A model generated the notes under the pieces. It worked only from the letters and a program-made list of their open reading frames with translations, had not been told where the DNA came from and did not search any database. Below, one piece after another: positions 1,400 to 35,368 of a DNA stretch of 64,000 nucleotides. The translations under genes and the position numbers were made by a program. Positions within the stretch are counted from its first letter, which is position 1. Each line of letters opens with the position of its first letter. Origin of the DNA: Paenarthrobacter sp. DKR-5. Lineage in GTDB: Bacteria > Actinomycetota > Actinomycetes > Actinomycetales > Micrococcaceae. The DNA lies in assembly GCF_018531425.1 (NCBI RefSeq), contig NZ_JAHBOI010000001.1:186001-250000 (forward strand). The letters are read 5' to 3'.

Positions 1400-1452
1400 G
1401 AAGGCCCCCAGAGCTAGCAGTAAGTACTGCCAGCAGTGGACGCCAGGAGGCG

Positions 1453-2058: not shown

Positions 2059-2255
2059 GCCGCCTCCTTGAACTCGAAGGCCGCTGGCCCACCTCAGGAC
2101 CGCCGGAAGGCCCAGACTAGCACTTGCACTACTGGCGACCGGGACGGGCGCGGGTGATAGCGTTCTGCCCACAGGAGGCTGGGGCCTGCACTAAACGCCC
2201 GCCAACGGCGCTGCCGCGGCGGGCTCCGATCTGCGAGCCGAGAGGGGAGCCTGCT

Positions 2256-3875
2256 GTGAATGGCCCCTTGAATCTGAAGACCTCCGCCGCGGCGGCCGTT
2301 GACCTCGTGACACCTGCGCCCCCGCGCCCCCGCCCGACCGTTGCCGGAGCCGCGCAGCTGGTGCGGGCTGCCGGCCGCGACCGTTACCTTGACCTGCTGC
2401 GGGCGATCGCCCTCGTCAGGGTGGTGGCGTACCACACCTTCGCCAGTGCCGGCTGGCTGAGCATTGCGTTCCCGTCGATGGGCGTGATGTTCGCGTTGGC
2501 GGGGTCGCTGATGGCGCGCTCACTGGAGCGGCCCACCCTGGGGGTGCTCAAGAGCCGGAGCCGTCGTCTGCTGCTGCCGCTCTGGGTATACAGCGGCACG
2601 GTCCTTTTCCTGCTGGCGTGGGAGGGATGGACGCCGAGCATGGATCCTGGCGCCACCCCGTTGAACACGCTGCTGTGGTTCCTGCCGATCGGAGACGTAC
2701 CGTTCCCGAGTCCGATGGGCTCGGATGCCGGCCTGGTGGACTCCACTTGGGCGCAGCAGGCCCAGGAAATCCTCTGGTACATCCGGGCGTACTTCTGGTT
2801 CATGCTGCTCTCGCCACTGCTGCTCAAGGCCTTCCGCCGGGCACCGTTGCCCACAATGCTGGCGCCGCTGGCCCTGCTCGGCGTCATAACCACCGGCATC
2901 CTCCCGCTGCCGGACTGGTCAGTTGACACGGTGACGGACTTTGCCACCTTCGGTGCCTGCTGGATGCTCGGTTTCGCCCATTACCTTGGACAGCTGCGCC
3001 GGCTTCCGCTTGTTGCCGTCGCCGCGGCCGGGGCCATTGCGATGGTCCTCGGGTTCGTGTGGGCCGCGAACAACCTTCCCCCCGAGGGCTGGGACTTCAA
3101 CAACATCCCCTTGGCACAGGCACTTTGGTCCCTCGGGTTCGCCGCGATCCTGATGCGCATCTCGCCGTCCTGGTCCGCCTTCCCTCAGCCGCTGCGGTTC
3201 CTCAACAAGCCCGTCACCTTGATCAACAACCGGGCGATGACGATCTACCTCTGGCACAACCTGCTGCTGGTGATCACCGTCGTGCTCATCAACAGGCTCT
3301 ACAACGACGAATTCATCGCGGCGCACTTTGCCGGGGTCCTGGACAGCGAGTGGTTCCAGTTCATTACCGTCTGGGTGATGCTGGCGCTGCTGTTCCCCAC
3401 GATCGGCTGGGTGGAGGACGTGGCAGCGAAACGTCCGGCGCAGCTCTGGCCGACCGGTTCCGGCAAGCCCCCGGCCAAGCGACCCGCAGCAGAGCCGGCA
3501 CCCGCCGCTGTGCCGGCCGCCGCCGCTGTGGCCGCCGCCGCTGCCCCGAAGCCTCGGACCGTCGCGCCGGCAGCCCCTAGGCGCCAGGCGCTGGCAGGAA
3601 ACGCCTACCACTGTGTACTCAACGACGGGGTGCCCGGTTCAGGGCTCTGGACCGACTCGCACGAGGGCCGCGAAAGCGTGCACGTCCTCAAAGGGCGCCT
3701 GCGCCTGGTCCTGGGCTCGCAGGACCGGATACTGGAGGCGGGCGAATCTGCGGAGTTCGATGCACGCGAGCTGCACTGGTTCGGGCAGGCGGACAAGGAC
3801 CCGGTGGAGTTCATCGGCCTGTTCGACGGCGAGGGCGCCGCCACGCATGCCACGCCCGCCGTGCGGCTGAAGTAG
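2256..3875 (+). CDS. Acyltransferase family 3 membrane protein fused to a C-terminal cupin domain
   Basis: 539 residues. Residues about 41-390 are a multi-pass acyltransferase-3 domain: DRYLDLLRAIALVRVV with the following H, then about ten hydrophobic helices and YLWHN near residue 330. Such proteins O-acylate cell-surface glycans or lipids. An Ala/Pro/Lys-rich linker (about 395-445) leads to a soluble 95-residue cupin-like beta-barrel (GLWTDSHEGRESVHVLKGRL, then LEAGESAEFDARELHWFG), lying on the cytoplasmic side if helix counting is right. GTG at 2256 is preferred because GGGGAG lies about 9 bp upstream and upstream codons look non-coding. The cupin extension is unusual for this family. The acyl acceptor is unknown. 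Confidence 0.8.
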   Translation: MNGPLNLKTSAAAAVDLVTPAPPRPRPTVAGAAQLVRAAGRDRYLDLLRAIALVRVVAYHTFASAGWLSIAFPSMGVMFALAGSLMARSLERPTLGVLKSRSRRLLLPLWVYSGTVLFLLAWEGWTPSMDPGATPLNTLLWFLPIGDVPFPSPMGSDAGLVDSTWAQQAQEILWYIRAYFWFMLLSPLLLKAFRRAPLPTMLAPLALLGVITTGILPLPDWSVDTVTDFATFGACWMLGFAHYLGQLRRLPLVAVAAAGAIAMVLGFVWAANNLPPEGWDFNNIPLAQALWSLGFAAILMRISPSWSAFPQPLRFLNKPVTLINNRAMTIYLWHNLLLVITVVLINRLYNDEFIAAHFAGVLDSEWFQFITVWVMLALLFPTIGWVEDVAAKRPAQLWPTGSGKPPAKRPAAEPAPAAVPAAAAVAAAAAPKPRTVAPAAPRRQALAGNAYHCVLNDGVPGSGLWTDSHEGRESVHVLKGRLRLVLGSQDRILEAGESAEFDARELHWFGQADKDPVEFIGLFDGEGAATHATPAVRLK

Positions 3876-5578: not shown

Positions 5579-7486
5579 TTACCACTTGCCCTTGCGGTTG
5601 AAGTCGCGGTGGCCGCTGTCCTTGCCGGCGCGCGGCTTGCGGGCGCCGTCGCCGTGGCCCGCGTAGCGGGCCTCACGCTCGCCGCCGCGCGGGGCGCGGT
5701 CGCCGTCGAACTTCTTCTTGAAGCCGCCCTGGCCGCGGTCGTTGCGTCCCTTGTAGCCGCCCTCGGAGCGGGGGGCGCGGCCCTTGTCCAGCTCGAGGTG
5801 GATCAGCTCGCCGCCGATGCGGGTGCGGCTCAAAGAGCGCAGCTGGTCCTGGCTCAGGTCCGCTGGCAGCTCCACCAGGGTGTGGTCCGAGCGGATGTCG
5901 ATGCCGCCGATCTGGGCGGAGCTGAGGCCACCCTCGTTGGCGAGGGCGCCCACGATTGACCCGGGCATCACGCGCTGGCGGCGGCCGACCGCGATGCGGT
6001 AGGTGGCGTTGCCTTCGGTGAGGGGCCGGGACGGGCCGCGGGAGCCGAAGCCGTCCTTGGACCGCTCGCGCTTCTGGAACTCGGGAGCCGGCGGCAGGTC
6101 CTGGACCAGCAGCGGGCGGCCGCCCTGGGCCATGACGGCGAGCGCGGCCGCAATCTCGGCGGCGGGCACGTCGTGCTCCACCTCGTAGGAGGCGATCAGG
6201 TCGCGGAAGACCGACACGTCCTCTGAGGCGAGGGTTTCGGTGATCTTCTCCGCGAACTTGCCCATCCGCAGGTTGTTGATGGTCTCCGCAGACGGCAGGT
6301 GCATCTGCTCGACCGGCTGGCGGGTCGCCTTTTCGATAGCCCGCAGCAGGTACCGTTCCCGCGGGGTCATGAACAGGATCGCGTCCCCGGAGCGGCCCGC
6401 GCGGCCGGTGCGGCCGATGCGGTGCACGTAGGACTCGGTGTCGTGCGGGATGTCGTAGTTGATCACGTGCGAGATCCGCTCGACGTCCAGGCCGCGGGCG
6501 GCGACGTCGGTGGCCACAAGGATGTCGATCTTGCCCTCGCGCAGCGCCTCGACGGTGCGTTCGCGCTGCTGCTGCGGGATGTCGCCGTTGATGGCGGCAG
6601 CCTGGAAGCCGCGGGACTTGAGCTTGTCGGCGAGCTCCTCGGTGGCCATCTTGGTGCGCACGAAGGCGATGACGCCGTCGAACTCCTCGGCCTCGAGCAC
6701 GCGGGTCAGCGCATCGAGCTTGTGCGGGCCCATCACCTGCAGGTACCGCTGGCGGGTGTTGGCGCCGGTGGTCGTCTTGGACTTGACGGTGATTTCCGCC
6801 GGGTTGTTCAGGTACTGCTTGGAAAGCCGGCGGATCTGGCTGGGCATCGTGGCCGAGAACAGCGCCACCTGGCGCCCCTCGGGGGTCTGCTGGAAGATCT
6901 GCTCCACGTCGTCGGCGAAGCCCATGCGCAGCATTTCGTCGGCCTCGTCAAGCACCAGGTACTGCAGCTCGGACAGGTCCAGGGACCCCTTCGAGATGTG
7001 GTCGATCACGCGGCCGGGCGTTCCGACAACGATCTGGGCGCCGCGGCGAAGGCCGGACAGCTGGGGTCCGTAGGCGGAGCCGCCGTAGACCGGGAGGACC
7101 GTGAAGTCCTCCATGTGCTTGGCGTAGGAGGTGAAAGCCTCGGCCACCTGCAGCGCCAGCTCGCGGGTCGGGGCCAGTACCAGGGCCTGCGTCTTGCGGG
7201 ACGGGCCGTTGAGGTCGTGCAGCTCGGCCAGGCGGGAAAGCGCCGGGACGGCGAAGGCAGCGGTCTTGCCGGTGCCGGTCTGCGCCAGGCCGACGACGTC
7301 GCGGCCCTCGAGCAGTGCCGGGATGGTCGCAGCCTGGATCGGGGACGGCTTCTCGTAGCCGACGTCGGCCAGTGCTGCGAGCACGCGGCCGTCGATGCCG
7401 AGATCGGCGAACCGCAGCTCTTCCGTCTCCTCGACAGCGGCTTCGGTGTTCTCTGCGGTCTCGGCGGAAAGGGTGTCAAAAGACAT
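5579..7486 (-). CDS. deaD: DEAD/DEAH-box ATP-dependent RNA helicase (CsdA/DeaD type)
   Basis: 635 residues; unwinds RNA duplexes with ATP, probably in ribosome assembly or cold-adapted RNA decay. In order: Q motif (FADLGIDG to SPIQAATIP), Walker A AQTGTGKT near residue 70, PTRELA, LDEADEMLRMG near 175, SAT, and helicase C with HRIGRTGRAGR near 345. A DbpA-type RNA-binding domain lies at about 480-560, followed by a Gly/Arg/Lys-rich tail. Length and tail match the DeaD/CsdA group. ATG 7486 is preferred because GAGGAA lies upstream and the acidic leader then begins MSFDTL; an ATG 21 bp earlier lacks a ribosome site. A long spacer precedes the gene and a terminator follows. Confidence 0.93.
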   Translation of the reverse strand: MSFDTLSAETAENTEAAVEETEELRFADLGIDGRVLAALADVGYEKPSPIQAATIPALLEGRDVVGLAQTGTGKTAAFAVPALSRLAELHDLNGPSRKTQALVLAPTRELALQVAEAFTSYAKHMEDFTVLPVYGGSAYGPQLSGLRRGAQIVVGTPGRVIDHISKGSLDLSELQYLVLDEADEMLRMGFADDVEQIFQQTPEGRQVALFSATMPSQIRRLSKQYLNNPAEITVKSKTTTGANTRQRYLQVMGPHKLDALTRVLEAEEFDGVIAFVRTKMATEELADKLKSRGFQAAAINGDIPQQQRERTVEALREGKIDILVATDVAARGLDVERISHVINYDIPHDTESYVHRIGRTGRAGRSGDAILFMTPRERYLLRAIEKATRQPVEQMHLPSAETINNLRMGKFAEKITETLASEDVSVFRDLIASYEVEHDVPAAEIAAALAVMAQGGRPLLVQDLPPAPEFQKRERSKDGFGSRGPSRPLTEGNATYRIAVGRRQRVMPGSIVGALANEGGLSSAQIGGIDIRSDHTLVELPADLSQDQLRSLSRTRIGGELIHLELDKGRAPRSEGGYKGRNDRGQGGFKKKFDGDRAPRGGEREARYAGHGDGARKPRAGKDSGHRDFNRKGKW

Positions 7487-7838
7487 AAGGGGAAATTCCT
7501 CATTCATTCGGGAACGGGCGGCAGCCAGCCGCATGACGTGGAAATCCAGCGCTGTTCCAATCCCATGGCAGGACTTCTCGCCATAACTTCAGGGCCGCTC
7601 TCTCAGCGGTCACGCATGGCGTTTTCTTTTAGCCGGCGCTCCCTATGAATCTGCCCCGCGGCGTCCTGCAGGACGCATCGCGCGGGCCCCAACACACCAA
7701 TCAGGCCTGACCTTGCAGGCATGAAAAAGGGAATTCCGGAATGGGGGATGTATCCAGTCTACGGCATCGGCCCGGCTTCGGAGCGGGCGGAGGCCCGGGA
7801 CGGGCGTGAGCTTGCGCACTCGCGCCCGGAGCCGCGCC
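7487..7838. promoter_or_regulatory. 352-bp gene-free spacer: probable helicase promoter and long leader
   Basis: No coding signal is seen. The stretch separates the 5' end of the helicase gene from the 3' end of the MOSC gene and must hold the helicase promoter. It contains a perfect 16-bp palindrome GCGTCCTGCAGGACGC (7661-7676). TAGACT, read on the minus strand near 7755-7760, could be a -10. A leader of about 250 nt would fit the long 5' untranslated regions known for cold-shock helicases; this is inference. Confidence 0.4.
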
Positions 7839-23987: not shown

Positions 23988-24461
23988 CTACTTCTTCTCT
24001 GGTTTCGTCATTTCGGGGATCAGCGAGTTCAGCCGGTCAATGACCGGGACCGCTGCCTCCAGCACGGTGCGGTCGTCCGGGCTCAGCGCCGCCAGCCGCT
24101 CCGCCAGGATCGCGTTGCGCCGCTGGTTGGCCGCCGCCAGCTCCTGGGCACCGCGTTCGGTCAACTGCACGAGCACGCCGCGGGCGTCGTCGGGATCAGG
24201 CCGGCGCAGGACCAGCCCCGCGGCCTCGAGCCTGATGACCTGTTCGGTGGCGCTGGGCACCTTGATGCCGCTCCGCCGGGCAATCCCGCCGATCCGCAGC
24301 GGCGCCTCCGCCAGCATGTTCAGCGTGCTCACCTGCGCTGTGGTCAGGTCGCCTTCGGCGTCAAGCGAGCGCGTGAGGTAGACGGCGTGGCGCAGGCTCT
24401 CGCGGTACTTGGCGGCGAGAGCGACCAGTTCCTTCTGGCTGGCGCCCTGTACAGGTTCCAT
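23988..24461 (-). CDS. MarR family transcriptional regulator
   Basis: 157 residues. A winged helix occupies about residues 40-105 (LTTAQVSTLNMLAE; the recognition region GIKVPSATEQVIRLEAAGLV; wing RRPDPDDARGVLVQLTERG), flanked by dimerisation helices. It most likely represses itself and the downstream efflux pump. The start codon is unusual in having no leader: a perfect palindrome starts at the ATG and a -10 box ends 8 bases before it, so the mRNA is probably leaderless. Confidence 0.9.
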   Translation of the reverse strand: MEPVQGASQKELVALAAKYRESLRHAVYLTRSLDAEGDLTTAQVSTLNMLAEAPLRIGGIARRSGIKVPSATEQVIRLEAAGLVLRRPDPDDARGVLVQLTERGAQELAAANQRRNAILAERLAALSPDDRTVLEAAVPVIDRLNSLIPEMTKPEKK

Positions 24462-24499
24462 AGTTAGGTAGCCTAACTATCACCCTGTCCGGCCGTCAA
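24461..24499 (-). promoter_or_regulatory. marR promoter with overlapping palindromic operator
   Basis: On the minus strand: -35 TTGACG (24499-24494), an 18-bp spacer, -10 TAGGCT (24475-24470), then 8 bases to the marR ATG. A perfect inverted repeat TAGTTAGG-TAG-CCTAACTA (24461-24479) covers the -10 and reaches the start codon. This is the layout expected for MarR autorepression. Confidence 0.8.
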
Positions 24500-24618
24500 G
24501 GCAGTGCTGCGTGACTTTCGGCACTGTCCGGGCCGCGGTCACCCGCGGACGCTGGGACCATCGCGGGCGGCGCCCCACCGGCCCGCCACAAGAGGGAAAC
24601 GACCCCAGGAGACGCCGT

Positions 24619-24777
24619 ATGGGCCCACATCTAATGGCGGCCGCCGGACCCGGTGTGTATATCGGAGTCGGCAGCTTCACCATCCAGTTCGGCAATCTCA
24701 TTGTCATCGTGGTGATGATCCTCCTGTTTGCCGCCGCGTTGCTCCTGCCGTTCCCGCCGGGCCGGAAACGGCAGTGA
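24619..24777 (+). CDS. 52-residue single-pass membrane protein of the cytochrome b cluster
   Basis: A small protein with one membrane helix at about residues 20-43 (GNLIVIVVMILLFAAALLLP) and a basic C-terminus (PGRKRQ). ATG 24619 is preceded by AGGAG at good spacing. Its stop overlaps the GTG start of the cytochrome b gene (GTGA), so it is co-translated. It resembles tiny accessory subunits of cytochrome complexes in size and position only; no homology is claimed. Confidence 0.75.
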   Translation: MGPHLMAAAGPGVYIGVGSFTIQFGNLIVIVVMILLFAAALLLPFPPGRKRQ

Positions 24778-25436
24778 GCACAGACCAGGCGTCCGGCCCC
24801 GGACCGCAGGACCGGTACAGCACCTGGACAGGGAAGGCACGCGGGTGGCTCCTGCGCCGCCTCCCGCCGGAGAAGCTGTTGCCGGAGGACCAGCCCAGCT
24901 ACGTGGCCTCGTGGATCTATGTGTTCGGCATGGGTGCCATCGCCGCCCTGGTCTGGGTGGTCGCGTCGGGCATCATCCTTGGCCTGAACGGCCCGCTCTG
25001 GTACCACACCTCCGGGCTGGGCCATTTCGTCAACAGCACCCATTTGTGGGGGGTGGAGCTTTTCTTCATGTTCATGGTGATCCACCTCTGGGGGAAGTTC
25101 TGGATGGCGGCTTGGCGAGGGGGCCGCGCGTTGACCTGGATCACCGGGATGATCGCCTTCGTGGCTTCCATCGTGACGGCGTTCACCGGCTACCTGCTGC
25201 AGACCAACTTCGACTCCCAGTGGATCGCTTTCCAGGCCAAGGACGCGCTCAACGCGGTCGGCGTCGGCGCCTGGTTCAAGGTTTCCGACATCGGCCAGGT
25301 CTTCACCTGGCATGTCACCTTGATGCCGCTCGCTCTCGGTGCTGTCATTGCGCTGCACGTGGTCCTGGTCCGTGTGCACGGCGTCGTGCCACCCCTTGAG
25401 GCGGCCGAGTCCGATGCCCAACTGGAGCGGCCATGA
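24774..25436 (+). CDS. Cytochrome b N-terminal-domain protein (b6-type, di-heme)
   Basis: 220 residues, four predicted membrane helices. Helix 2 carries STHLWGVELFF and, 14 positions after the first His, the second His of VIHLWGKFW. Helix 4 has TWHVTLMPLALG and a His 15 positions on. The 13- and 14-residue gaps are the b6-type pattern for two bis-His hemes. The protein is only the N-terminal half of a bc1 cytochrome b and lacks the PEWY Qo half. It should carry electrons across the membrane, probably from menaquinol, but no Rieske or c-type cytochrome gene is adjacent. GTG start overlaps the small gene's stop. Confidence 0.85.
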   Translation: MSTDQASGPGPQDRYSTWTGKARGWLLRRLPPEKLLPEDQPSYVASWIYVFGMGAIAALVWVVASGIILGLNGPLWYHTSGLGHFVNSTHLWGVELFFMFMVIHLWGKFWMAAWRGGRALTWITGMIAFVASIVTAFTGYLLQTNFDSQWIAFQAKDALNAVGVGAWFKVSDIGQVFTWHVTLMPLALGAVIALHVVLVRVHGVVPPLEAAESDAQLERP

Positions 25437-26380
25437 GCACAGCACAAGCGCGACGCCGGCCGCGGACGGATCTCGCGGCACGGGCATGGACGGGCACGGT
25501 CCGCGAATACGACCTGTTCAAGGAGCTTGTGGTGGGCCTCGTCGTCGTGGGCCTGCTGGTCCTGGGCATTTCGGCGGCCTTCGGCTCCCCTGACGAAGCC
25601 AGCGTGACACTGAAGACCTGGGCGGCTGAGGCCCCCGCCGATTTCGTCGCCACTGCCACGGCGGAACTCGGCGGGACCAGTGACACCGCCGGCTACGGGC
25701 CGCCGTACAACTCGACTTCCGACGCCTCGCAGAAACTCGGACCGCTCGACCTGCAAAGCTTCTCGGGCGTGCGGCTGCCGGTCGACACCGCGAACGACTT
25801 CGTGATCGGGCCGCTCAAGACCCTTCCGAGTCCCCCGGCGGCCCTCTCCGCCTGGACCGGCGCGGACGACAAACAACGCACGGACTGGGCCGCGGCCTAC
25901 GCCGATGCCCTGTCGAAGGCGCCCGACAACGACCCGGCGAAGGTCGCTCCGGGAAACTACGGGCCGGTCCCGGCACTCACAGCCGCCCTGCTGGGCATGG
26001 CCAAGGACGGCACGCTCGACGGCGTCCTGCAGTCGGGCGGCTCGTTCTACAACCTCGACTACACGCGCAGCATCCTCTTCATGGGCGACGGCGGCTACTT
26101 CCCCGGGCTGGCGGACGGCCAGCACCTGACCGGCGACCAGTGGGGCATGATGAACGAAACCGGCAACTACCCCGGCCAGTCCTGGCTGTGGCTGTTCTCC
26201 TTCTGGTACCAGGTGGAGCCGATCAAGTCAGCCTCGAACGCGGATCTGCTCGCCGTCCTGCTGATGGTGGTGCTCACCCTGCTCCTCACCTTCCTCCCCT
26301 TCATCCCCGGGCTCAGGTCCATCCCCCGCTGGATCCCGGTGCACCGGCTGATCTGGAAGGACTATTACCGCCGGCGCTGA
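25433..26380 (+). CDS. Two-TM protein with large extracytoplasmic domain, cytochrome b partner (unrecognised)
   Basis: 315 residues. One helix at about 32-52 (VVGLVVVGLLVLGISAAFG), about 205 residues outside rich in Gly, Asp, Tyr and Trp, a second helix at about 265-290, and a basic cytoplasmic tail ending KDYYRRR. Its ATG overlaps the cytochrome b stop (ATGA), so it is made with it. It sits where subunit IV (PetD) would lie but shows no PEWY motif, no CxxCH and no Rieske cysteines. I do not recognise the family; a role in quinol binding or electron exit is only a guess. Confidence 0.75.
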   Translation: MSTAQARRRPRTDLAARAWTGTVREYDLFKELVVGLVVVGLLVLGISAAFGSPDEASVTLKTWAAEAPADFVATATAELGGTSDTAGYGPPYNSTSDASQKLGPLDLQSFSGVRLPVDTANDFVIGPLKTLPSPPAALSAWTGADDKQRTDWAAAYADALSKAPDNDPAKVAPGNYGPVPALTAALLGMAKDGTLDGVLQSGGSFYNLDYTRSILFMGDGGYFPGLADGQHLTGDQWGMMNETGNYPGQSWLWLFSFWYQVEPIKSASNADLLAVLLMVVLTLLLTFLPFIPGLRSIPRWIPVHRLIWKDYYRRR

Positions 26381-26565: not shown

Positions 26566-26569
26566 ACCG

Positions 26570-26651
26570 TGGCAGATGAGGGATTCGAACCCCCGTAGGC
26601 AGTGCCAGCTGATTTACAGTCAGCCCCCTTTGGCCGCTCGGGTAATCTGCC
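26570..26651 (-). tRNA. tRNA-Tyr (anticodon GTA)
   Basis: The minus strand gives acceptor GGCAGAT paired with ATCTGCC, a class II long variable arm, anticodon stem GCTGA, loop CTGTAAA, stem TCAGC, and T loop GTTCGAATC. The anticodon is GTA; the 82-nt length fits Tyr. Confidence 0.93.
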
Positions 26652-27674: not shown

Positions 27675-28796
27675 TCACTGCACACTAGTCCGCCCAGAGT
27701 CCGCAGGATTACCGAGGACCGCAGCCATCAGTCCCGCGGCTGCGGTCCTCGTTTTGTCTTCAGCCGAGGGCCAGAGGTGGGCGTAGACGCCGAGCGTGAT
27801 CGTCGGGGACGAGTGCCCGAGTGCCCTCTGCACAGTCACTACGTCGCAGCCATCCGCGATAAGGGCACTAGCGAAGAAGTGCCGCAGGTCGTGAAGGGTG
27901 TACTCCCCTAGCCCCGCCGCGAGCCGCGTTTGCCGCCAGTGATGGCCCGCCATGTTCCGGTTCAGCAGCGCCCCGCCGGATGAAAACAACCACTGCTCAT
28001 CGCCTCGGACGCCAACCTCCTGAACATGCCGGGCAACCATTTGGACCAGAGCCTCAGGCACATAGATGACGCGCTCCGAACCATACTTAGGCGCAACGAC
28101 TTCCGCATTCTTCCGGTTCGAGCCTTGCACCTGCCGCCGGATGGAGATTGTCCTCCGCAGGAAGTCCACGTCGCCGAGCTGCAAGCCGGCCGCTTCGCCC
28201 AGCCGCAGGCCGGCGAAGGCGCAAACGCCAATGAAGGGACGGAACCAATCCTGCGCGACCTCCAATGCTTTGGCGACTTCATCCACGGCCGGGATAGTCA
28301 TTGCCGCTTCGGCCCGTCTCGCCTTGGGAAGCACGGCGTTGGACGTCGGATCTAGGGGGATCACCCGGTCAAGGACAGCAGCCCTGAAGGCCATGTGCAC
28401 GTAGTTGAAGCGGGTCTTGATCGTACTGGGCGCCAAGCCACCTAGCCGGGAGTCCGCAGGCTTGGACATGGATTTGATCCACTCCTGGACGTGGGATGGC
28501 CGGATCGTCTTTATCGGCACATCCTTGAAGGTGGTTGAATCCGCCGCCTGCTGGGCTGCCAGGACGGTTCCCTGTGCCCATACCTGCCGGTCAGACCATT
28601 CATCGAACCAGCGCTGGAAGGTGATCTTGCCAGCCTTCGGATCGACGTAGGTTCCGGTCACCACCGACGCAGTGACTTCATCAACCCACTTCTGAGCGTC
28701 TATCTTCCTTGCAAAGTGCTTGGAGTGCTCTTTGCCGGCAGCGTCACGATAACGGGCGCGCCACGCCCCGTCAGGCCTCTTCTTTATGCTCGCCAC
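27675..28796 (-). CDS. int: Tyrosine recombinase integrase
   Basis: 373 residues. The N-terminal ASIKKRPDGAWRARYRD arm-binding domain is followed by a core-binding SAM-like domain (about 65-150) and a catalytic domain with Arg in GLRLGEAAG near 197, HDLRH near 301-305, GHSSP near 327, and the nucleophile Tyr in LGVYAHLWP near 337. It integrates and excises the element at the yajQ site. GTG 28796 is chosen over an ATG 78 bp upstream because GGAG lies 7 bases before it and family proteins begin at ASIKKR. It overlaps the repressor gene's 3' end by 26 bp, so int is probably expressed with it. Confidence 0.92.
   Translation of the reverse strand: MASIKKRPDGAWRARYRDAAGKEHSKHFARKIDAQKWVDEVTASVVTGTYVDPKAGKITFQRWFDEWSDRQVWAQGTVLAAQQAADSTTFKDVPIKTIRPSHVQEWIKSMSKPADSRLGGLAPSTIKTRFNYVHMAFRAAVLDRVIPLDPTSNAVLPKARRAEAAMTIPAVDEVAKALEVAQDWFRPFIGVCAFAGLRLGEAAGLQLGDVDFLRRTISIRRQVQGSNRKNAEVVAPKYGSERVIYVPEALVQMVARHVQEVGVRGDEQWLFSSGGALLNRNMAGHHWRQTRLAAGLGEYTLHDLRHFFASALIADGCDVVTVQRALGHSSPTITLGVYAHLWPSAEDKTRTAAAGLMAAVLGNPADSGRTSVQ
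27687..27705 (+). other. Left-end integrase arm-type repeats (2 copies)
   Basis: AGTCCGCC (27687) and AGTCCGCA (27698), 11 bp apart in the same orientation, match the three copies at the right end. They lie inside the int 3' end next to the attachment core, the usual place for arm sites of a lambda-like integrase. Confidence 0.65.
27714..27760 (+). terminator. Terminator inside int that can end yajQ transcripts
   Basis: GAGGACCGCAGCC (27714-27726) pairs with GGCTGCGGTCCTC (27738-27750), followed on the plus strand by GTTTTGTCTT. It is oriented to stop transcription arriving from yajQ and lies within the antisense of the int coding region. Confidence 0.7.
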
Positions 28797-29262
28797 TGGA
28801 ACGCTCCGCTTCGAATAGCTCCTTACCCGCTCGGACAGCATCCTCCACTGTTCCCGGCTCAGTGATGGCGACACTCACCCAGGCTTCGGCGGTGTCTATG
28901 TCCTGCTCTTCAGCCTCTTGCAGCAAGTTCCGAACCCGCTGTTCACTCCGCAGGAACCGCACTACTCCTGACGTTATGTCCCGTGCGGCACGGACCTGAG
29001 CCTCGTGGGCATCAGATAGCTCTTTGCTGTAGCTCGCCAGCACTGGGTCAACCAGGAAATCCTCGATACTGACTCCAAGAATGGCGGCCAGATCTATACC
29101 TTCAGAGATCCGAAGGGGCCTTTCGCCCTTTTCGACGCTCCAAACGGTGGCCTGTGACCACTTCCAGCCGCGGGCTCGCATCGCCTCCGCTAAGGCCTGT
29201 TGGCTCATCTCTCCGCGTTTAAGCGCAAGAACCTGGCCGAGAAATTCGTCGTGACTGGACAT
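28771..29262 (-). CDS. XRE-type HTH repressor of the element
   Basis: 163 residues. The N-terminal helix-turn-helix (LALKRGEMSQQALAEAMRAR, WSQATVWSVEKGERPLRI) is followed by a long helical C-terminal part rich in Glu/Arg. It is placed like a phage immunity repressor: divergent from the early genes, with int immediately downstream. Operator repeats containing TACTAGAAATG lie between it and the early genes and reach close to its start. No lexA-like peptidase motif is seen, so induction is probably not by simple RecA cleavage. Confidence 0.87.
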   Translation of the reverse strand: MSSHDEFLGQVLALKRGEMSQQALAEAMRARGWKWSQATVWSVEKGERPLRISEGIDLAAILGVSIEDFLVDPVLASYSKELSDAHEAQVRAARDITSGVVRFLRSEQRVRNLLQEAEEQDIDTAEAWVSVAITEPGTVEDAVRAGKELFEAERSSGEHKEEA

Positions 29263-29272
29263 GCCAACACTG

Positions 29273-29344
29273 TACTAGAAATGCCAGTTGACAGCTACTA
29301 GTAACGCAAGTAATCTCATTTCTAGTAGCACGCTACTAGAAATG
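29273..29344 (+). promoter_or_regulatory. Early promoter with repressor operators (genetic switch)
   Basis: Plus strand: -35 TTGACA (29288-29293), 17-bp spacer, -10 TAATCT (29311-29316), close to consensus. A perfect palindrome with 13-bp arms (CATTTCTAGTAGC at 29317-29329; GCTACTAGAAATG at 29332-29344) covers the transcription start. Related half-sites lie in the spacer (GCTACTAGTAACG, 29294-29306) and upstream (TACTAGAAATG, 29273-29283). Bound repressor should block the early genes. Confidence 0.88.
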
Positions 29345-29365
29345 CGTGTAACCGAAGGAGGAACG

Positions 29366-29566
29366 ATGGAAACGGTAAAGGCCATGAAGCTGCTGACGCT
29401 TGAAGAAGTCGCCCAGATGCTTCGGAAGTCGCCCGCACAGCTTCGCTGGATGAAGCACGCGGGGACTGGCCCGAAGTGCGCCAAGCTCGGCGGCCGCGTC
29501 ATGTACCGCGAGCAGGACGTAATCGACTGGGTAAACGCCGCGTTTGAGTCAGAGGAAACCGCGTGA
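29366..29566 (+). CDS. Excisionase/AlpA-like helix-turn-helix protein
   Basis: 66 residues with a MerR/Xis-type winged helix: LLTLEEVAQMLRKSPAQLRW then LGGRVMYREQDVIDWV. Such proteins direct excision by bending att DNA or activate integrase and late genes. AAGGAGG lies just before ATG 29366. It is the first gene from the repressed early promoter, consistent with a role in induction. Confidence 0.85.
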   Translation: METVKAMKLLTLEEVAQMLRKSPAQLRWMKHAGTGPKCAKLGGRVMYREQDVIDWVNAAFESEETA

Positions 29567-29751
29567 GCGCACCCGTACCCGTGAACGCAGAGCTCAGGCT
29601 CGTAGCCCGCTGCCGGGTGTGCGGAGCGCCAATGGTGAGCAAGGAGTCCCTCGCAACGGGCATCGGTCCGAAGTGCAGGGGGCAATCGAAAAGAAACGGC
29701 CCCGGTGCTGCGAACACCGAGACCGTCAGTACAGAACCAACCAACCACTAA
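29563..29751 (+). CDS. DUF6011-like cysteine protein
   Basis: 62 residues: a CRVCGAPMVSKES region and GIGPKCRGQS near the middle supply three or more cysteines in a zinc-ribbon-like arrangement typical of a small actinophage family of unknown function. GTG 29563 overlaps the preceding stop (GTGA). Function unknown; nucleic-acid binding is plausible. Confidence 0.7.
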   Translation: MSAPVPVNAELRLVARCRVCGAPMVSKESLATGIGPKCRGQSKRNGPGAANTETVSTEPTNH

Positions 29752-29764
29752 GAAGGAAGTCCCG

Positions 29765-30124
29765 ATGACTCAGATTACCCCGTGGCCCGCCACACTGCTA
29801 GAACTCGCCAAGATCGCCAAGCAGAGGGAGGAAAGGCCGACCGCGACGCTCGCCGCCCTGGAGACCGAACTTGGCCCCTGCCCGATGCCTCCTGAGGGCT
29901 ACACGCTTGCCCCTGGGAGCTCGACTCGCTGGGTCGGACCGGAAACGACTAACCGCGGCTGGATCATCACGCCGGTATGGGACTTCACGACGAACAGCCA
30001 CAGCATCGAAGTGTGGATGGCGGGACACCAACCCCCGAGTTACGCCAGCCTCTCGCCGGCCGACGCCCTAGAGCTCGTCGCTGATCTCGCAGCAGCCGCC
30101 CGAGTCATCGCCGCCCTGGCCTGA
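29765..30124 (+). CDS. Hypothetical phage-type protein
   Basis: 119 residues, no recognised domain. It ends in an alanine-rich helix (ALELVADLAAAARVIAALA); the middle has a beta-rich stretch (RGWIITPVWDFTTNSHSIEV). AAGGAAG precedes ATG 29765. It lies between the cysteine protein and the replication-like gene in one transcript. Confidence 0.65.
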   Translation: MTQITPWPATLLELAKIAKQREERPTATLAALETELGPCPMPPEGYTLAPGSSTRWVGPETTNRGWIITPVWDFTTNSHSIEVWMAGHQPPSYASLSPADALELVADLAAAARVIAALA

Positions 30125-30141
30125 GCGAACGGGAGCCTGGC

Positions 30142-30891
30142 GTGGTCGTATCGCATCCGTGGGGAAACCTCCTGGAAGCCGGAAGGTTCGAGTGGGAGAA
30201 GGTCGTGCGCCAGTGCCGGTTCCCCAAGCAGAACACGAAGCTCGTAGCGCTCACGATTGCAACTTACGCCGATACCAAGACCGGACAGAACATCTACCCC
30301 GGGCAGAAGCGTCTCGCCGCCCACACTGGCATCTCAGACCGTGCGGTCCGTGACCATCTCAAAGACCTGGAGCGCTTCGGCCTTCTTTACCTCCAAGTCA
30401 AGGGCAGCAGCTTCGGGCGCGGAGGCAAGGGAATGGCAAGCCGTTACCAGCTGTCCGTACCTCAGGCGCTCTTCGATTGGTTCCACCAAGAGGCACAAAA
30501 CGACCTCGACGTGTGGGACCTCGACGGCCTCGACTACGACGTCGCAACGGGAGAACAGCGGAAGTCACCTTCCGGTGATAAGCGGGCCGAAATGACACAA
30601 ACACCGGAAGTTCATACCGGAACACCGGAAGTTCGCAGCACATCACCGGAAGTCCTCGACACAAACACCGGAAGCCAGCTTCCGCCTACCTCCTCATTAC
30701 CTCTTCATGAAGTAAATCCTCATCAGTCAAATCTTCATGCGGCGAGCATCACCTCAGGTGACGCCCGCGAGGGAAATGAGCAGACGGGCGAAATTGACCG
30801 AGACAACCACGGCCTGACATTCGAACAGGAACGCCAAAGACAAATGACTGAACTGCAAAAACGGATGGCCGCCGAAAGGAAAGCTTCATGA
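30142..30891 (+). CDS. Winged-helix replication-initiation-like protein
   Basis: 249 residues. The first 115 form a helix-turn-helix domain of the HTH_36 kind (YADTKTGQNIYPGQKRLAA, then GISDRAVRDHLKDLERFGLL) seen in phage and plasmid replisome organisers. The middle (about 145-185) holds TPEV/SPEV repeats encoded by CCGGAAG DNA repeats, and the C-terminal part is charged and helical. It might start replication of the excised element. GTG 30142 follows GGGAG. No helicase-loader or primase motif is visible. Confidence 0.7.
   Translation: MVVSHPWGNLLEAGRFEWEKVVRQCRFPKQNTKLVALTIATYADTKTGQNIYPGQKRLAAHTGISDRAVRDHLKDLERFGLLYLQVKGSSFGRGGKGMASRYQLSVPQALFDWFHQEAQNDLDVWDLDGLDYDVATGEQRKSPSGDKRAEMTQTPEVHTGTPEVRSTSPEVLDTNTGSQLPPTSSLPLHEVNPHQSNLHAASITSGDAREGNEQTGEIDRDNHGLTFEQERQRQMTELQKRMAAERKAS
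30601..30675 (+). repeat. Iteron-like CCGGAAG repeats spaced 21-22 bp
   Basis: CCGGAAG occurs at 30604, 30625, 30646 and 30668 on the same face of the helix, with an inverted CTTCCGG just upstream near 30569. They lie in the coding region of the replication-like gene and also encode a 7-residue peptide repeat. They could be an origin iteron array. Confidence 0.55.
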
Positions 30892-31088
30892 CCGGCGATT
30901 CGCCCTCAGTAGCCAGCATGCGCCTCTCAAAAGCCCAATACATCGCCCTCGCTGACCAGTACCGCCAGACCGCCCAGGAAGCCCACGACCGGGCCCGGAC
31001 GTGGCGGAACCGGGCCCTGCTCTCAGAAGCCCGACTCTCCACGCTACGGGCCGCCTACGAGCCGGAAGGAACGGAGCCCTGCTCATGA
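30888..31088 (+). CDS. Small hypothetical protein
   Basis: 66 residues, mainly one long charged helix (SKAQYIALADQYRQTAQEAH, then RARTWRNRALLSEARL). ATG 30888 overlaps the stop of the replication-like gene and its own stop overlaps the next start, so it is part of a coupled chain. Function not recognised. Confidence 0.65.
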   Translation: MTGDSPSVASMRLSKAQYIALADQYRQTAQEAHDRARTWRNRALLSEARLSTLRAAYEPEGTEPCS

Positions 31089-31375
31089 CGCTATTGGAAG
31101 TGAAACGCGATACGGAGTGGTGCTCCATGTTTGTCGACGGACTGCCACCCGCCGACTTAACGCGGCAACAATGGCAGGCGCTAATGGAGCTGGCCAGCAT
31201 TCACGACAAACGCCGGCCAGATGACCAGACACAAACAGGACGCAACGGCCGGGCAGGCGGCTGGAACCTCTTCGCCCGAAACGGCGAATTCGAACGGCTC
31301 CTAGGCATAGCAGGCGCCATCCTGACAAATGACTTCGGTCCCCTGGCCGAATACCGATATGAGGCGCAACCATGA
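31085..31375 (+). CDS. Small hypothetical protein
   Basis: 96 residues, no known domain; begins MTLLEVKRDTEWCSMFVDGL and contains a helical ASIHDKRR region. ATG 31085 overlaps the previous stop by 4 bp and the stop overlaps the next ATG. The chain of ATGA overlaps supports real translation. Confidence 0.65.
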   Translation: MTLLEVKRDTEWCSMFVDGLPPADLTRQQWQALMELASIHDKRRPDDQTQTGRNGRAGGWNLFARNGEFERLLGIAGAILTNDFGPLAEYRYEAQP

Positions 31376-31557
31376 CCGCCCAGCGCCCCACCGTGAAGCC
31401 CCGCCTGTGGATCTGGAAAGACGGCCCTTGGCGCGAAACCCGCGGCATCGGCCTCTTCCGCGGCCAGGATCTCGCAGCACACCTCAAGCCCGACGAAGCA
31501 CGAGTCCTCGCGGACGCCCTCCACGACCTCGCAGACCACATCGAGGCGACACGATGA
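31372..31557 (+). CDS. Small hypothetical protein
   Basis: 61 residues: PRLWIWKDGPWRETRGIGLF, then a helical end DEARVLADALHDLADHIE. Linked to its neighbours by ATGA overlaps on both sides. Function unknown. Confidence 0.65.
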   Translation: MTAQRPTVKPRLWIWKDGPWRETRGIGLFRGQDLAAHLKPDEARVLADALHDLADHIEATR

Positions 31558-31724
31558 GCAGCAGCAAAGCCAAAGTCCGCCCGTACGCCCGGCAAATCCA
31601 AGTCCGGTTCATCGCCCGCCGTGCAGAGGAACAGAAACGAGCCATGAACGGGCCGACGTTCCCGCCGGCCAAGCAACTCCCGCCCCTGCCAAAGAGCGCC
31701 CGAAAGGAAACCGGCAATGAGTGA
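31554..31724 (+). CDS. Small basic hypothetical protein
   Basis: 56 residues, strongly basic (KAKVRPYARQIQVRFIARRA), which suggests nucleic-acid binding. ATG 31554 overlaps the preceding stop; its own 3' end overlaps the zinc-ribbon gene by 8 bp. Confidence 0.6.
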   Translation: MSSSKAKVRPYARQIQVRFIARRAEEQKRAMNGPTFPPAKQLPPLPKSARKETGNE

Positions 31725-31866
31725 ATTTTTGGAACAGCTACTTGCCCCCACGCCCCCGCCCTGCCCGCGGTGCTCCAAACCCGCACCGGGCGCCCGATGC
31801 CCCAACTGCAACGCCGACACCACCCGCACCTTCATCAAGAACTCAGGAGGAACCCGTGTCCGATGA
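31717..31866 (+). CDS. Tiny zinc-ribbon protein
   Basis: 49 residues with CPRC and CPNC pairs separated by eight residues (PCPRCSKPAPGARCPNCNAD), a compact zinc ribbon. ATG 31717 lies in GAAAGGAAACCGGCA, which gives it a ribosome site. It overlaps both neighbours. Confidence 0.65.
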   Translation: MSEFLEQLLAPTPPPCPRCSKPAPGARCPNCNADTTRTFIKNSGGTRVR

Positions 31867-32077
31867 TCTGCCCGACTGGAACGACGCATTCATGCGCGCC
31901 GCCTTCGACCCACAGTTCAAGTTCGCACCCATCGTCAAGCCGCCCGAGCACGAGCTTCACGCGATTGAGGCGACAGCCGCGTTGCTCGATATTCGATGCA
32001 ATTGCGGGGCAGGATGCAAACCGAAATATCACGGGCGGGCAGTGACATTCCCCGACTGCCCGAGCTGCATGAGGTAA
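31856..32077 (+). CDS. Small Cys-rich hypothetical protein
   Basis: 73 residues. The N-terminal half is acidic (SDDLPDWNDAFMRAAFD); the end has CNCGAGC and CPSC, suggesting metal binding. CAGGAGG precedes GTG 31856 at good spacing, so the in-frame ATG 135 bp upstream is not needed. Last gene of the coupled chain before a hairpin. Confidence 0.68.
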   Translation: MSDDLPDWNDAFMRAAFDPQFKFAPIVKPPEHELHAIEATAALLDIRCNCGAGCKPKYHGRAVTFPDCPSCMR

Positions 32078-32085
32078 GCGTGACG

Positions 32086-32118
32086 GTGGCAACTGGCGAG
32101 AAGAGCGCCAGTTGCCAC
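32086..32118 (+). terminator. Hairpin ending the early gene chain
   Basis: GTGGCAACTGGCG (32086-32098) pairs perfectly with CGCCAGTTGCCAC (32106-32118). There is no T-run after it, so it may be a weak or factor-assisted terminator, or an RNA stabiliser between early and capsid genes. Confidence 0.55.
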
Positions 32119-32402
32119 CCGACCACCGTCTTGGAACACAATCTCCATTTCAATAGCCATCACCGGAACATATTGCCGATATACTAGGAACCGGAAGTTA
32201 GGCACGGATGATTGACGGCCCCCTTTCCCGGAGCGAAAGCCCCCGGAGACGGAACCGACAAGGACACCCCTGCAAACTCGGAGTAAGTGCTTTACCGCGC
32301 ACCACGGCGACGGCCAGAGGAGCGCAAAGCCGCCGCAATGACGCATCGCGTCCGCCGGCACACCTACATTCACTCAGGGTCCGCAGAATCCCGAGAAATC
32401 CC

Positions 32403-33593
32403 TTGTCGAACACCATCGAAGCGCGCCGCGCCATCGCCGAGCTGGCAACCAAATCCCAGGCCATCCTCAAGAACAACCGCCTCAGCAACGTTGAAAAGAA
32501 GACCGCCCTCGACGGCCTGACCATTGAACTCAAGCAGCACCAGGAAACGCTGAAGCTCCACGACGAGGCCAAGCGCCTCATGGTCGGCGGCTCCGCTCCT
32601 GGCTACGGCGAATCGCCCATTGCTAAGAACATCGCTGCCGGCATCGCGACGAAGGGCGCAAGCGTCCCCACCCTGAGCGTCCCCGATGATGCGCTGGAGC
32701 AGGCTTTCTCGTCACTCAAGGGCGGCGGCAACTTCCGCGCCGAACTGGGCATGAAGGACGCCGCATCCTCCATCACCACGGACGGGCAGCTTCCGCCACA
32801 GTTCATCGGGCTCGTTGACAAGCCCTTCGAACCGGTTCGGATCCTCGACCACCTGCCGACCACGCCAACTCAGGCGCCGTCTGTCGAATTCATTGTTCAC
32901 GCCTCCAGCTCCGCCTCGGCTGCCGCCGTGGCAGCCGGCAGCGCCTACCCGGAAACCTCGCTGGCCACCACCCAGACCATCATCAAGCTGGAGAAGCTCG
33001 GCATCCTCACCACGCTGACCGATGAGCTGATGGCCGACTTCGCCACCTTCCGCAGCTACGTATCCGTTGAACTCCAGCGCCAGATCATCGACGCCGAGAA
33101 CAACGCTCTGCTCAACGGAAGTGGCACGTCCCCGGAGATCCGCGGCCTCCTCAATACCTCCGGAGTCATCACGCGAGCGAAAGGCACAGAGAGTGCCCTC
33201 GACACTATCGCTGAGGGAATCGACGATCTGCGCACCGGTTCAAGCTTCTGCGAGCCCGACGCTTTGGTAATTCATCCCACCACGTGGGGCGCGATCCGCC
33301 GGGAAAAGGATTCCTACGGCCGCTACCTCCTCGGAGACCCGGGGCAGACCGCCGTCTCTGATGTGTGGGGAATCCCGATTGTCCTCACAACCCAGATCGC
33401 CGCGGGCACCGCAGTCCTGGCTAACCTCCAGATCGCCGCCACGGCATTCATCCGGCAGGGCATCACCCTTGAGATGAGTAACAGCAGCGGCAACGACTTC
33501 AGCAACGGCTTGGTGAAGGTCCGGGCGAGCGAGCGTCTTGCGCTCGGAGTGCAGCGCCCCTCCGCCGTCAACATCCTCACGGCACTGGCCTAA
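32403..33593 (+). CDS. HK97-fold phage major capsid protein
   Basis: 396 residues. The first 70 are a charged helical delta-like region (ARRAIAELATKSQAILKNN). The rest has capsid features: LPPQFIGLVDKPFEPVRI, a beta-rich P domain, ITDELMADFATFRSYV-like helix (written TLTDELMADF), LLNGSGTSPEIRGLLNTSGV near residue 235, and LVKVRASERLALGVQRPSA near the end. It forms the icosahedral shell. The TTG start is uncertain: the frame is open upstream to 32208. No protease or portal gene is adjacent, so shell maturation and DNA entry would need helper functions. Confidence 0.85.
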   Translation: MSNTIEARRAIAELATKSQAILKNNRLSNVEKKTALDGLTIELKQHQETLKLHDEAKRLMVGGSAPGYGESPIAKNIAAGIATKGASVPTLSVPDDALEQAFSSLKGGGNFRAELGMKDAASSITTDGQLPPQFIGLVDKPFEPVRILDHLPTTPTQAPSVEFIVHASSSASAAAVAAGSAYPETSLATTQTIIKLEKLGILTTLTDELMADFATFRSYVSVELQRQIIDAENNALLNGSGTSPEIRGLLNTSGVITRAKGTESALDTIAEGIDDLRTGSSFCEPDALVIHPTTWGAIRREKDSYGRYLLGDPGQTAVSDVWGIPIVLTTQIAAGTAVLANLQIAATAFIRQGITLEMSNSSGNDFSNGLVKVRASERLALGVQRPSAVNILTALA

Positions 33594-33596
33594 GCC

Positions 33597-33761
33597 ATGG
33601 CAAAGGTAGAAATCCTCCCGCCGTTCCGAGTCGTTGAAGAGGGAACCATCTACACTGCCGGCGACACAGCCGACGTGCCCGACGCTGTAGCCAAGCACTG
33701 GGAAGCGTCAGGGTGGGTCAAACCGGCCAAGACCACAAAGCCCGCAGCAACAAAGAAATAG
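33597..33761 (+). CDS. Small phage head-associated protein
   Basis: 54 residues: EILPPFRVVEEGTIYTAGDT, then ADVPDAVAKHWEASGWV and a lysine-rich tail. This pattern of Gly-Asp followed by VPD and a Trp-x-x-x-Gly-Trp is common in tiny actinophage proteins next to the capsid gene; role unknown, possibly a capsid or neck accessory. ATG 33597 follows the capsid stop by 3 bp. Confidence 0.75.
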   Translation: MAKVEILPPFRVVEEGTIYTAGDTADVPDAVAKHWEASGWVKPAKTTKPAATKK

Positions 33762-33767
33762 CCAACC

Positions 33768-33800
33768 TGATGGCCCGGACAATCAACGTCCGGGCCATCA
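33768..33800 (+). terminator. Terminator of the capsid operon
   Basis: TGATGGCCCGGAC (33768-33780) pairs with GTCCGGGCCATCA (33788-33800), 7-base loop, directly after the small head gene. No clear T-run follows. Confidence 0.7.
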
Positions 33801-34319
33801 GCACCCCCTGAGCTCTGTGTGTGTTAGCGACTACCCGGCGGAGTCGCCGGCCGGGTAAGTCGGCTAGAGATATTTTTGGCCCACCCCCATCGCGCACGCG
33901 CGTGCTACCACACGACGCCGAATACGCGCTTGAAGGCGCCCTTCCGGAATGGCTGTGACCGACGACCGACGGGGAGGTACGAATCTCTGTCGCCGCTACG
34001 AGACGGAGACTCATCGGGTAAGTGGCCTCTCCCTCCCCGGAGGTAGGGGGGCGGTGGAAGCACTGAGGGCGCGCTCAAGGGCCAAACGTGTGGAAAAAAA
34101 TTGCCATGAATAGAAAAGACTCACCGTGGCAGTCAGCGGCCCGACGATAGGTGGCAGGATTCCAACCTCCCACCCCCATGTGAGGAAATACGCGGGGAGG
34201 GATCTGACTCACCGGGCAGTCAGTCGCCGTGGAAATCGGTGGAGATGGTCAAACCCCACTCGGTCATTCAAGTTGGGGAGCTGCACGTTTCGCAATCAAT
34301 TGCCGGTAGGCTGCGCCGC
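33801..34319. other. About 520-bp gene-free segment of the element with direct repeats
   Basis: No convincing gene. It contains GACTCACCGTGGCAGTCAG (34118-34136) and GACTCACCGGGCAGTCAG (34206-34223), an alternating CGCGCACGCGCG stretch near 33890, an A-run (34094-34100) and several GC-rich hairpins. A satellite needs a packaging site, and this is the largest non-coding space in the element. A weak -10-like TAGGCT lies just before the next gene. Confidence 0.5.
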
Positions 34320-34784
34320 ATGACATATAACTCACACCCCGATGACCAGCCTTCTGAGAGATGGCGCCGCGCTACCGACGATGCTGAAGTCGCTAGTGTT
34401 CTCCCACAGTTCTCGTTTCAAGATCCGGTTGCGGTTGGAATGCTGTTCTGTAATGCCCTTGGTGATCCAGATTCGAACTTTAACGCGCTCTCCCGGTTGG
34501 CTACGCCCGAATCCTTGCCGGCCTTTGGCGACTTCAAGGACGCCGCCGCTTTTCTGGCATCAGTCAAGGACGCAGGTTACGGCTCGAACGCGGAGCGAGC
34601 CGTCGGAGATGATGGGGTCGCCTATTTCAAAATCCTGTCGGGCATTACCGAGAACTTTCAGCTACTAGAAGAGCAGATCATGGCTGGAGCGGGTGTCGTT
34701 ACTCTGGTCTGGCGCGAAGAGTTCGATGAGTGGCGTGTGCACAGCATCGGGGTACCGCTGAGGCCTGAAGACGTTCCGCACTGA
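34320..34784 (+). CDS. Hypothetical cargo protein of the element
   Basis: 154 residues, not recognised. A globular mix of helices and strands (VAVGMLFCNALGDPDSNF; GVVTLVWREEFDEWRVHSIG) near the right end of the element. ATG 34320 is chosen because TAGGCT lies 7 bases upstream, implying a leaderless start; GTG 34239 is possible. Lower G+C than the host genes. Cargo or regulatory role unknown. Confidence 0.55.
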   Translation: MTYNSHPDDQPSERWRRATDDAEVASVLPQFSFQDPVAVGMLFCNALGDPDSNFNALSRLATPESLPAFGDFKDAAAFLASVKDAGYGSNAERAVGDDGVAYFKILSGITENFQLLEEQIMAGAGVVTLVWREEFDEWRVHSIGVPLRPEDVPH

Positions 34785-34786
34785 TC

Positions 34787-35368
34787 GTGTTGCTCACTGA
34801 AGAATCGCGGCTCATACCTGTGAAGCCAAAGCTAGCCTTCACGCTGGATGAGGCGGCCGAGGCGTGCGGCTATAGCGTGGCCACGCTTCGCCGTGCCCTG
34901 CGCAACCATGACCTGATCGCCCGCTATGCCAACTCCAAGCCAGTGATCTTGGTTTCTGAACTAGAGGAGTGGCTATGCTCGCTGCCGATGGAGCCGAAGG
35001 GCGGATATCCGCCAGTCAGCCGGTTCGCTGAGGATGAGCAGTCAGACCTGCCCGGACCTGAACTAGACGTGTCGGGACAAGGGCAGCCGCTTCAAGCCCT
35101 GGCCGATCCCGAAGCGGCCTCGGGTCAACCACGCACCCAGCGTTCGTCCTCGCCGGTCTTTAGAACCCCGGAGGAGGTTGCTCCTGAGCTTGGTATTAGC
35201 AAGTCTTCCGTACGGACCTTCTGTCGCATATCCGGCGCCTACACCCGCGTAGGCAATCGGATGATGATGCACGCCGACGATGTAGAAGAGTTGGTCGAAT
35301 GGCTACGGCAGCGGCAAGCAAATAAGGATGGGCGATGGGTCGAGCCCGAGCGAGACCCGTTCGCTTAG
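34787..35368 (+). CDS. Protein with two excisionase-type HTH domains
   Basis: 193 residues. The N-terminal domain (FTLDEAAEACGYSVATLRRA, then KPVILVSELEEWL) and the C-terminal domain (FRTPEEVAPELGISKSSVRT, then RMMMHADDVEELVEWL) are both MerR/Xis-like winged helices, joined by a Pro/Gln-rich linker (about 70-120). A bivalent DNA-binding protein near attR fits bridging of two sites, such as attachment arms. GTG 34787 is 2 bp after the upstream stop, so it is coupled; GTG 34820 is an alternative. Confidence 0.7.
   Translation: MLLTEESRLIPVKPKLAFTLDEAAEACGYSVATLRRALRNHDLIARYANSKPVILVSELEEWLCSLPMEPKGGYPPVSRFAEDEQSDLPGPELDVSGQGQPLQALADPEAASGQPRTQRSSSPVFRTPEEVAPELGISKSSVRTFCRISGAYTRVGNRMMMHADDVEELVEWLRQRQANKDGRWVEPERDPFA

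Follow-up and report, generated by a model that had tools for sequence, protein, structure and literature searches.

To our knowledge, every well-studied cytochrome b of the bc or b6f type relies on a Rieske partner and on an outer quinol site of the PEWY type. The described systems closest to the locus analyzed here are the b6f complex (cytochrome b6 and subunit IV), the actinobacterial bcc complex (QcrB/QcrA/QcrC), ExtP, the b-type cytochrome of a selenite/tellurite reduction operon, and CybB, a di-heme superoxide oxidase. Three genes (P1, P2 and P3) in the window, that is, the whole 64-kb stretch of DNA that was analyzed, encode a cytochrome b-type complex that lacks the tested defining features of the bc1/bcc and b6f complexes (Rieske protein, PEWY-bearing C-half, CxxCH subunit and Cys35), as the preliminary description of the locus had suspected. 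The trio very likely constitutes a separate, uncharacterized machine; no description of it was found in the literature searched, which is not proof that none exists. The reading that we prefer, with a probability of roughly 55%, is a Rieske-free, non-bifurcating, quinone-linked transmembrane electron carrier that is used under low oxygen. The features of the locus are as follows.

24511..24524, + strand: best DosR-box-like 14-mer upstream of P1, GTGACTTTCGGCAC, 10/14, not significant alone
24608..24612, + strand: ribosome-binding-site-like AGGAG ahead of P1, read directly in the sequence
24619..24777, + strand: P1, 52 aa, single helix with a positively charged C-terminus predicted to lie inside
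24774..25436, + strand: P2, 220 aa, GTG start, four helices, di-heme cytochrome b N-half
25433..26380, + strand: P3, 315 aa, two helices, probable remodelled cytochrome b C-half

The three genes lie head to tail and overlap by 4 nt at each junction (GTGA and ATGA), and the reading frames bear out the earlier account of a one-helix protein, a di-heme N-half and a two-helix protein encoded by overlapping genes. The same account stated that no Rieske, c1 or PEWY-bearing subunit is adjacent, and this stands: none of the three proteins of the window contains Cys, there is no CxxCH subunit in the trio and no further gene in the operon, P3 carries PGQxW, and no Rieske match of the host genome falls inside the window. 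The host genome (3.78 Mb, 100% complete) encodes its ordinary QcrB and the accompanying Rieske protein on a separate contig, C8, far from the trio. The flanks consist of a divergent MarR/MFS/thioredoxin cluster upstream and a tRNA-Tyr gene with an integrated element downstream; a dedicated redox partner among these genes was considered and rejected because neither the upstream nor the downstream neighbors are conserved with the trio.

Several features of these flanks are recorded here in their own right. The divergent MarR-type gene (23988-24461) is followed by an MFS transporter gene and a thioredoxin-like gene, and its start is overlapped by a perfect 9+9 palindrome, ATAGTTAGG-TAG-CCTAACTAT (24460-24480), which looks like an autoregulatory MarR operator. 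The small integrated element (27675-35368), located near the tRNA-Tyr gene (26569-26651, minus strand), carries genes for an integrase, a regulator, an excisionase and a replication initiation protein. Its HK97-type major head protein (32208-33593) stands alone, as genes for a terminase, a portal or a tail were not seen nearby. The element may be a phage satellite that carries a capsid gene, or else a prophage in decay.

A search for the three-gene order across genomes, as the preliminary description had proposed, showed that the order is highly conserved. Scanning one genome per species yielded 339 relatives of P2, of which the best 80 were kept as loci; among these, P3 directly follows P2 in 79 (in the 80th, L067, the contig ends after P2) and P1 was detected by tblastn in 76, with one of the loci scored as lacking it (L075) containing a 58-aa one-helix open reading frame at the expected place. 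Given this recurrence, the trio is not a chance arrangement. The loci come mostly from Arthrobacter, Cryobacterium, Sinomonas and other Micrococcales, along with actinobacterial metagenome-assembled genomes (MAGs) from freshwater and soil. The occurrence of the trio is patchy (11 of 396 sampled genomes of the phylum and 4 of 297 of the order), with P2 adjoining P3 in every locus fetched for the phylum hits; P3 had no match on plasmids. No neighbors beyond P1-P3 are conserved across all loci, a DosR-type cluster being found in a subset only. Two diverged copies of the trio (L098 and L099) occur in a single genome, G094, with 37-39% identity to the P3 of the window. In three other loci (L026, L047 and L050), the match extends beyond the open frame of P2 or P3, which suggests frameshifts caused by sequencing error or by decay.

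Every junction within the trio is fused in some relative. P1, P2 and P3 form a single 589-aa chain in L077 and L081 (coordinates 1350-3119 and 5812-7581, respectively), L085 (5004-6491) is a triple fusion as far as the contig reaches, P1 and P2 are fused in L086 and L096, and P2 and P3 in L092. Judging from hydrophobic segments and charge, the fusions would share a single topology, with P1 ending inside and both P2 and P3 beginning and ending inside.

The P2 protein belongs to the cytochrome b family, as indicated by its score above the curated cut-off of Pfam Cytochrom_B_N_2 (PF13631; E 3e-14, 53.7 bits vs a cut-off of 27) together with the two His pairs in helices B and D; its profile matches cytochrome b6 (probability 98), and its PDB matches are the cytochromes b of many bc1 and b6f complexes. 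The heme-ligand pairs, H90-X13-H104 and H180-X14-H195, are invariant across 48 diverse relatives. The b6-like spacing of these ligands had been put forward as distinguishing, but spacings of 13 and 14 are also present in the ordinary QcrB of the host, X14 in helix D included, so that the spacing was abandoned as a b6-type marker. In a profile alignment, V50 occupies the position of the b6 heme c-i ligand Cys35, and the invariant R200 matches R207 of b6. Relative to QcrB, the cd region lacks about a dozen residues; it contains the invariant residues K156, D157 and N160. Cys is absent from 67 of the 74 rows in the P2 alignment and from 65 of the 71 rows in that of P3, and therefore most of these proteins cannot house a c-type heme or a Rieske-type cluster. 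The best NCBIfam match of P2 is ExtP (NF040969), with 52.6 bits against an equivalog cut-off of 290, which is not reached. In P1, alignment of the relatives reveals conservation of N26, I30, M33, F37, A40 and P44-F45-P46.

The P3 protein consists of a helix (28-50), a helical extracytoplasmic domain (approximately 55-235), a conserved loop (236-250, NETGxYPGQ) and a second helix (270-290). An AlphaFold2 model of P3 alone contains both helices and an all-helical ectodomain that is predicted very confidently at 120-200, with low confidence for the conserved loop (236-248). Conserved positions include R24, Y26, D27, K30, E31, S52-P53-D54, YGPPY and GPVP, as well as QWGMMNETGxYPGQxWLW, D271 and PGLRxIPR. 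The sequence has no match worth the name in Pfam, NCBIfam or the PDB, and the model of P3 alone matches no PDB fold. Pfam Cytochrom_B_C matched none of 52 family members. Neither the PEWY/PDWY motif nor the full set of helices E to H that mark a bc1/bcc C-half is present, P3 having PGQxW and two helices only.

Nevertheless, we consider it fairly probable that P3 is a strongly remodelled cytochrome b C-half that has lost PEWY. Helix E of bc1 carries KD at its inner end and PD at its outer end, and K30-E31 and S52-P53-D54 of P3 are placed as at these two ends; further on, PGQxW-(WYQ)-NAD-helix-PFIPG resembles PEWY-ef-helix F. Direct comparison of P3 with C-half profiles gave hhalign probabilities of 6-17, collinear over both helices and not significant, with 2-5% of block-shuffled controls equalling the score. 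Because this comparison alone is weak, the natural fusion of L077 was folded, using an alignment (A5) in place of two others (A3 and A4) in which segments of P3 or P2 were misplaced. In the resulting model (mean pLDDT 72, with low confidence for helix D), residues 83-321 align with residues 3-249 of cytochrome b in several structures, through the helix E contributed by P3, and residues 83-521 align with residues 3-269 of ovine cytochrome b (Z 10.9, rmsd 4.4, 150 aligned). The ovine PEWY starts at 270, and the alignment puts PGQPW at this position. Actinobacterial QcrBs ranked at the top of a Foldseek search with the model (E about 5e-3); the TM-scores were poor, an effect of the ectodomain and of those parts of P2 that the model misplaces or leaves uncertain. 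Thus, P3 probably contains helix E, as supported by the predicted structure, the signal from sequence alone being not significant. On this assumption, P3 would comprise helices E and F; between them would lie an inserted helical ectodomain and then a rebuilt ef loop with PGQxW in the place of PEWY, and helices G and H would be gone.

Alternatively, P3 might not derive from cytochrome b at all: a two-helix protein of unrelated origin, bearing a large ectodomain, might have been joined to the N-half, in which case the helix-E-like placement would be expected of any helix located beside helix D. The lack of a significant profile match, the lack of a fold match for P3 alone and the missing helices G/H and PEWY all accord with such an origin. 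However, P3 comes after the N-half both in the gene order and in the fusions, the KE...SPD pattern occurs at helix-E spacing, and the fusion model superposes helix E and matches the PEWY position, so that we regard an unrelated origin as unlikely, albeit one to be taken seriously. Hence, the earlier description of the partner as unrecognized is valid insofar as database matches are concerned, whereas P3 is probably a remodelled C-half and not an unrelated protein.

The fused loci L077, L081 and L085 are low in GC (40-45%) and come from genomes of 0.7-0.9 Mb; the record of L081 is named Ca. Saccharibacteria. In each of these three genomes, the single Cytochrom_B_N_2 match is the fusion itself, and neither a Rieske protein nor any other cytochrome b was found, an absence that is provisional given that these are MAGs of unknown completeness, although all three agree. 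COX1 is present in each; in the two genomes whose subunit I sequence was read, it matches CyoB (1016 and 1026 bits vs a cut-off of 1020), and the genes for oxidase subunits II and III adjoin it. These genomes suggest that the complex does not need bc1. By contrast, a separate canonical QcrB is encoded in 11 of the 11 actinobacterial genomes tested, and a Rieske protein is present in those searched for one. The characterization of the cluster as stand-alone is supported in that no qcr operon was seen beside the trio in the loci examined and in that no Rieske protein or other cytochrome b was found in the three small genomes; the actinobacterial genomes tested have the separate QcrB in addition. 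As a separate observation, many actinobacterial cytochrome b C-halves (Pfam Cytochrom_B_C; L102-L124) have KAPWYF, not PEWYF, at the outer quinol site.

The trio appears to be linked, in many actinobacteria, to the hypoxia/dormancy response that DosR governs. The operon of Curtobacterium (L058) continues from P3 into a Usp gene; after this come PNPOx-like genes, the gene for a response regulator with DevR/DosR of M. tuberculosis (3c3w, E 9e-65) as its best PDB match, and that for a GAF kinase of the DevS/DosS type whose best matches are DevS/DosT domains. At least two kinds of DosR-type neighbors (Usp, PNPOx-like, phosphoketolase, P-type ATPase, ADH, nitroreductase or DosR/DosS) are encoded in the flanks of 16 of the 80 loci, many of which are close relatives. 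The regions upstream of P1 were also scanned for the best 14-mer against GGGACTWWAGTCCC, with other upstream regions of the same loci as the control: with a threshold of at least 12 of 14 matching positions, 7 of the 77 regions ahead of P1 contained a box, compared with 0 of 499 controls, and with at least 11 of 14 the counts were 17 of 77 and 17 of 499, the positions falling mostly between -61 and -85; the samples are not independent in either comparison. These scored scans supersede a looser one (up to 2 mismatches), which was near background. For the promoter in the window, the degenerate pattern GGGNC(4)GNCCC was tried and dropped, being common in the host genome and below the reversed control. 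There are no DosR genes in the flanks of the trio in the window; the host genome encodes a DosR ortholog (54%) about 445 kb away.

Taken together, P1, P2 and P3 would form one seven-helix membrane complex in which two b hemes are the only obvious cofactors. Because there is no Rieske protein, c1 or PEWY, a bifurcating Q cycle is impossible, and as to the mode of work, the complex can be described at most as a di-heme transmembrane electron carrier. Electrons would most likely be exchanged with menaquinone at a putative retained Qi-like site on the cytoplasmic side, which is assigned by residue correspondence only (R200 of P2 and K30-E31 of P3); in the small genomes, the partner would be whichever quinone feeds their oxidase. 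The quinol linkage proposed in the preliminary description accordingly stays a prediction from sequence. Given the two b hemes, the signature of an inner quinone site and the lack of anything that would take a second electron outside, electrons are expected to be transferred one at a time, crossing the membrane via b-high and b-low. A small outside substrate would most likely give or take them in a pocket that would be capped by the P3 ectodomain and built from the cd segment of P2 (K156, D157 and N160), this ectodomain and the NETGxYPGQ loop. In view of the DosR link, the service of the complex is probably quinone redox balance at low oxygen.

Among the other functions that could be envisaged, a superoxide- or radical-scavenging quinone reductase, in which electrons would pass from superoxide outside through b-low and b-high to the quinone inside, as in CybB, comes closest to this carrier. 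It would fit a membrane entity with two b hemes and no other cofactor, and likewise the co-occurrence of the trio with a CyoB-type quinol oxidase in the small genomes, in which no bc1 complex was found; CybB shows such minimal chemistry to be workable (PMC11869295). However, CybB represents a different family, P2 being a cytochrome b by Pfam, and the DosR linkage suggests a setting of low oxygen and not of oxidative stress, which makes this function improbable, albeit a serious alternative; superoxide is one candidate among possible outside substrates. Still less probable is that P2 and P3 serve as an alternative cytochrome b for an ordinary bcc complex, recruiting Rieske and c-type subunits encoded elsewhere: the presence of QcrB in all 11 actinobacterial genomes tested, and of a Rieske protein in those searched for one, would allow this, but against it stand the missing PEWY/PDWY, a cd region that is shorter than in QcrB, and the three small genomes that encode the fusion, none of which yielded a Rieske protein or a second cytochrome b. 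The least probable of the functions considered is that of a heme-based membrane sensor or a transport partner, which the strongly conserved ectodomain of unrecognized type and the regulatory neighbors in some loci might bring to mind; both heme sites are invariant in a normal cytochrome b arrangement, and there is no signaling domain.

Returning to the quinone-linked carrier, its evolutionary counterpart would be a branch of its own within the cytochrome b superfamily, one that dropped Rieske, c1 and PEWY, rebuilt the outer site with an inserted ectodomain and became a lone quinone-linked transmembrane enzyme, including the only cytochrome b beside a CyoB-type oxidase in ultra-small Patescibacteria; we give this scenario an even chance. 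A conserved complex that retains the di-heme half without a Rieske protein or a PEWY-type site, and that is present in small genomes in which no second cytochrome b was found, would reveal the role left to cytochrome b when there is no bifurcation and bears on the origin or dismantling of bc complexes. The energy metabolism of Saccharibacteria is poorly understood, and the trio is a testable candidate for an unknown redox step in these organisms and in hypoxic actinobacteria.

In comparison with the known systems, the trio is like b6f in the split of cytochrome b into an N-half and a separate C-half-like protein, in the heme ligands of the N-half, in the Arg after helix D and in the presence of a small one-helix subunit, but differs from it in lacking Cys35/heme c-i, PEWY, Rieske and cytochrome f, and in that the C-half-like P3 has an inserted ectodomain and only two helices; P3 resembles subunit IV in helix E and the PEWY position by structure, not significantly by sequence. 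With the actinobacterial bcc complex, the trio shares the fold of the N-half, the His spacings and the top Foldseek matches, whereas Rieske, the diheme cytochrome c, PDWY and the long cd loop are missing and the genes are located separately. ExtP is likewise an N-half-only cytochrome b, but the trio has no adjacent multiheme cytochromes or other Ext genes, and P2 scores far below the ExtP cut-off. Finally, the trio resembles CybB as a stand-alone membrane system with two b hemes and a quinone site, which is putative in the trio, but CybB belongs to another family and is a minimal four-helix bundle without an ectodomain.
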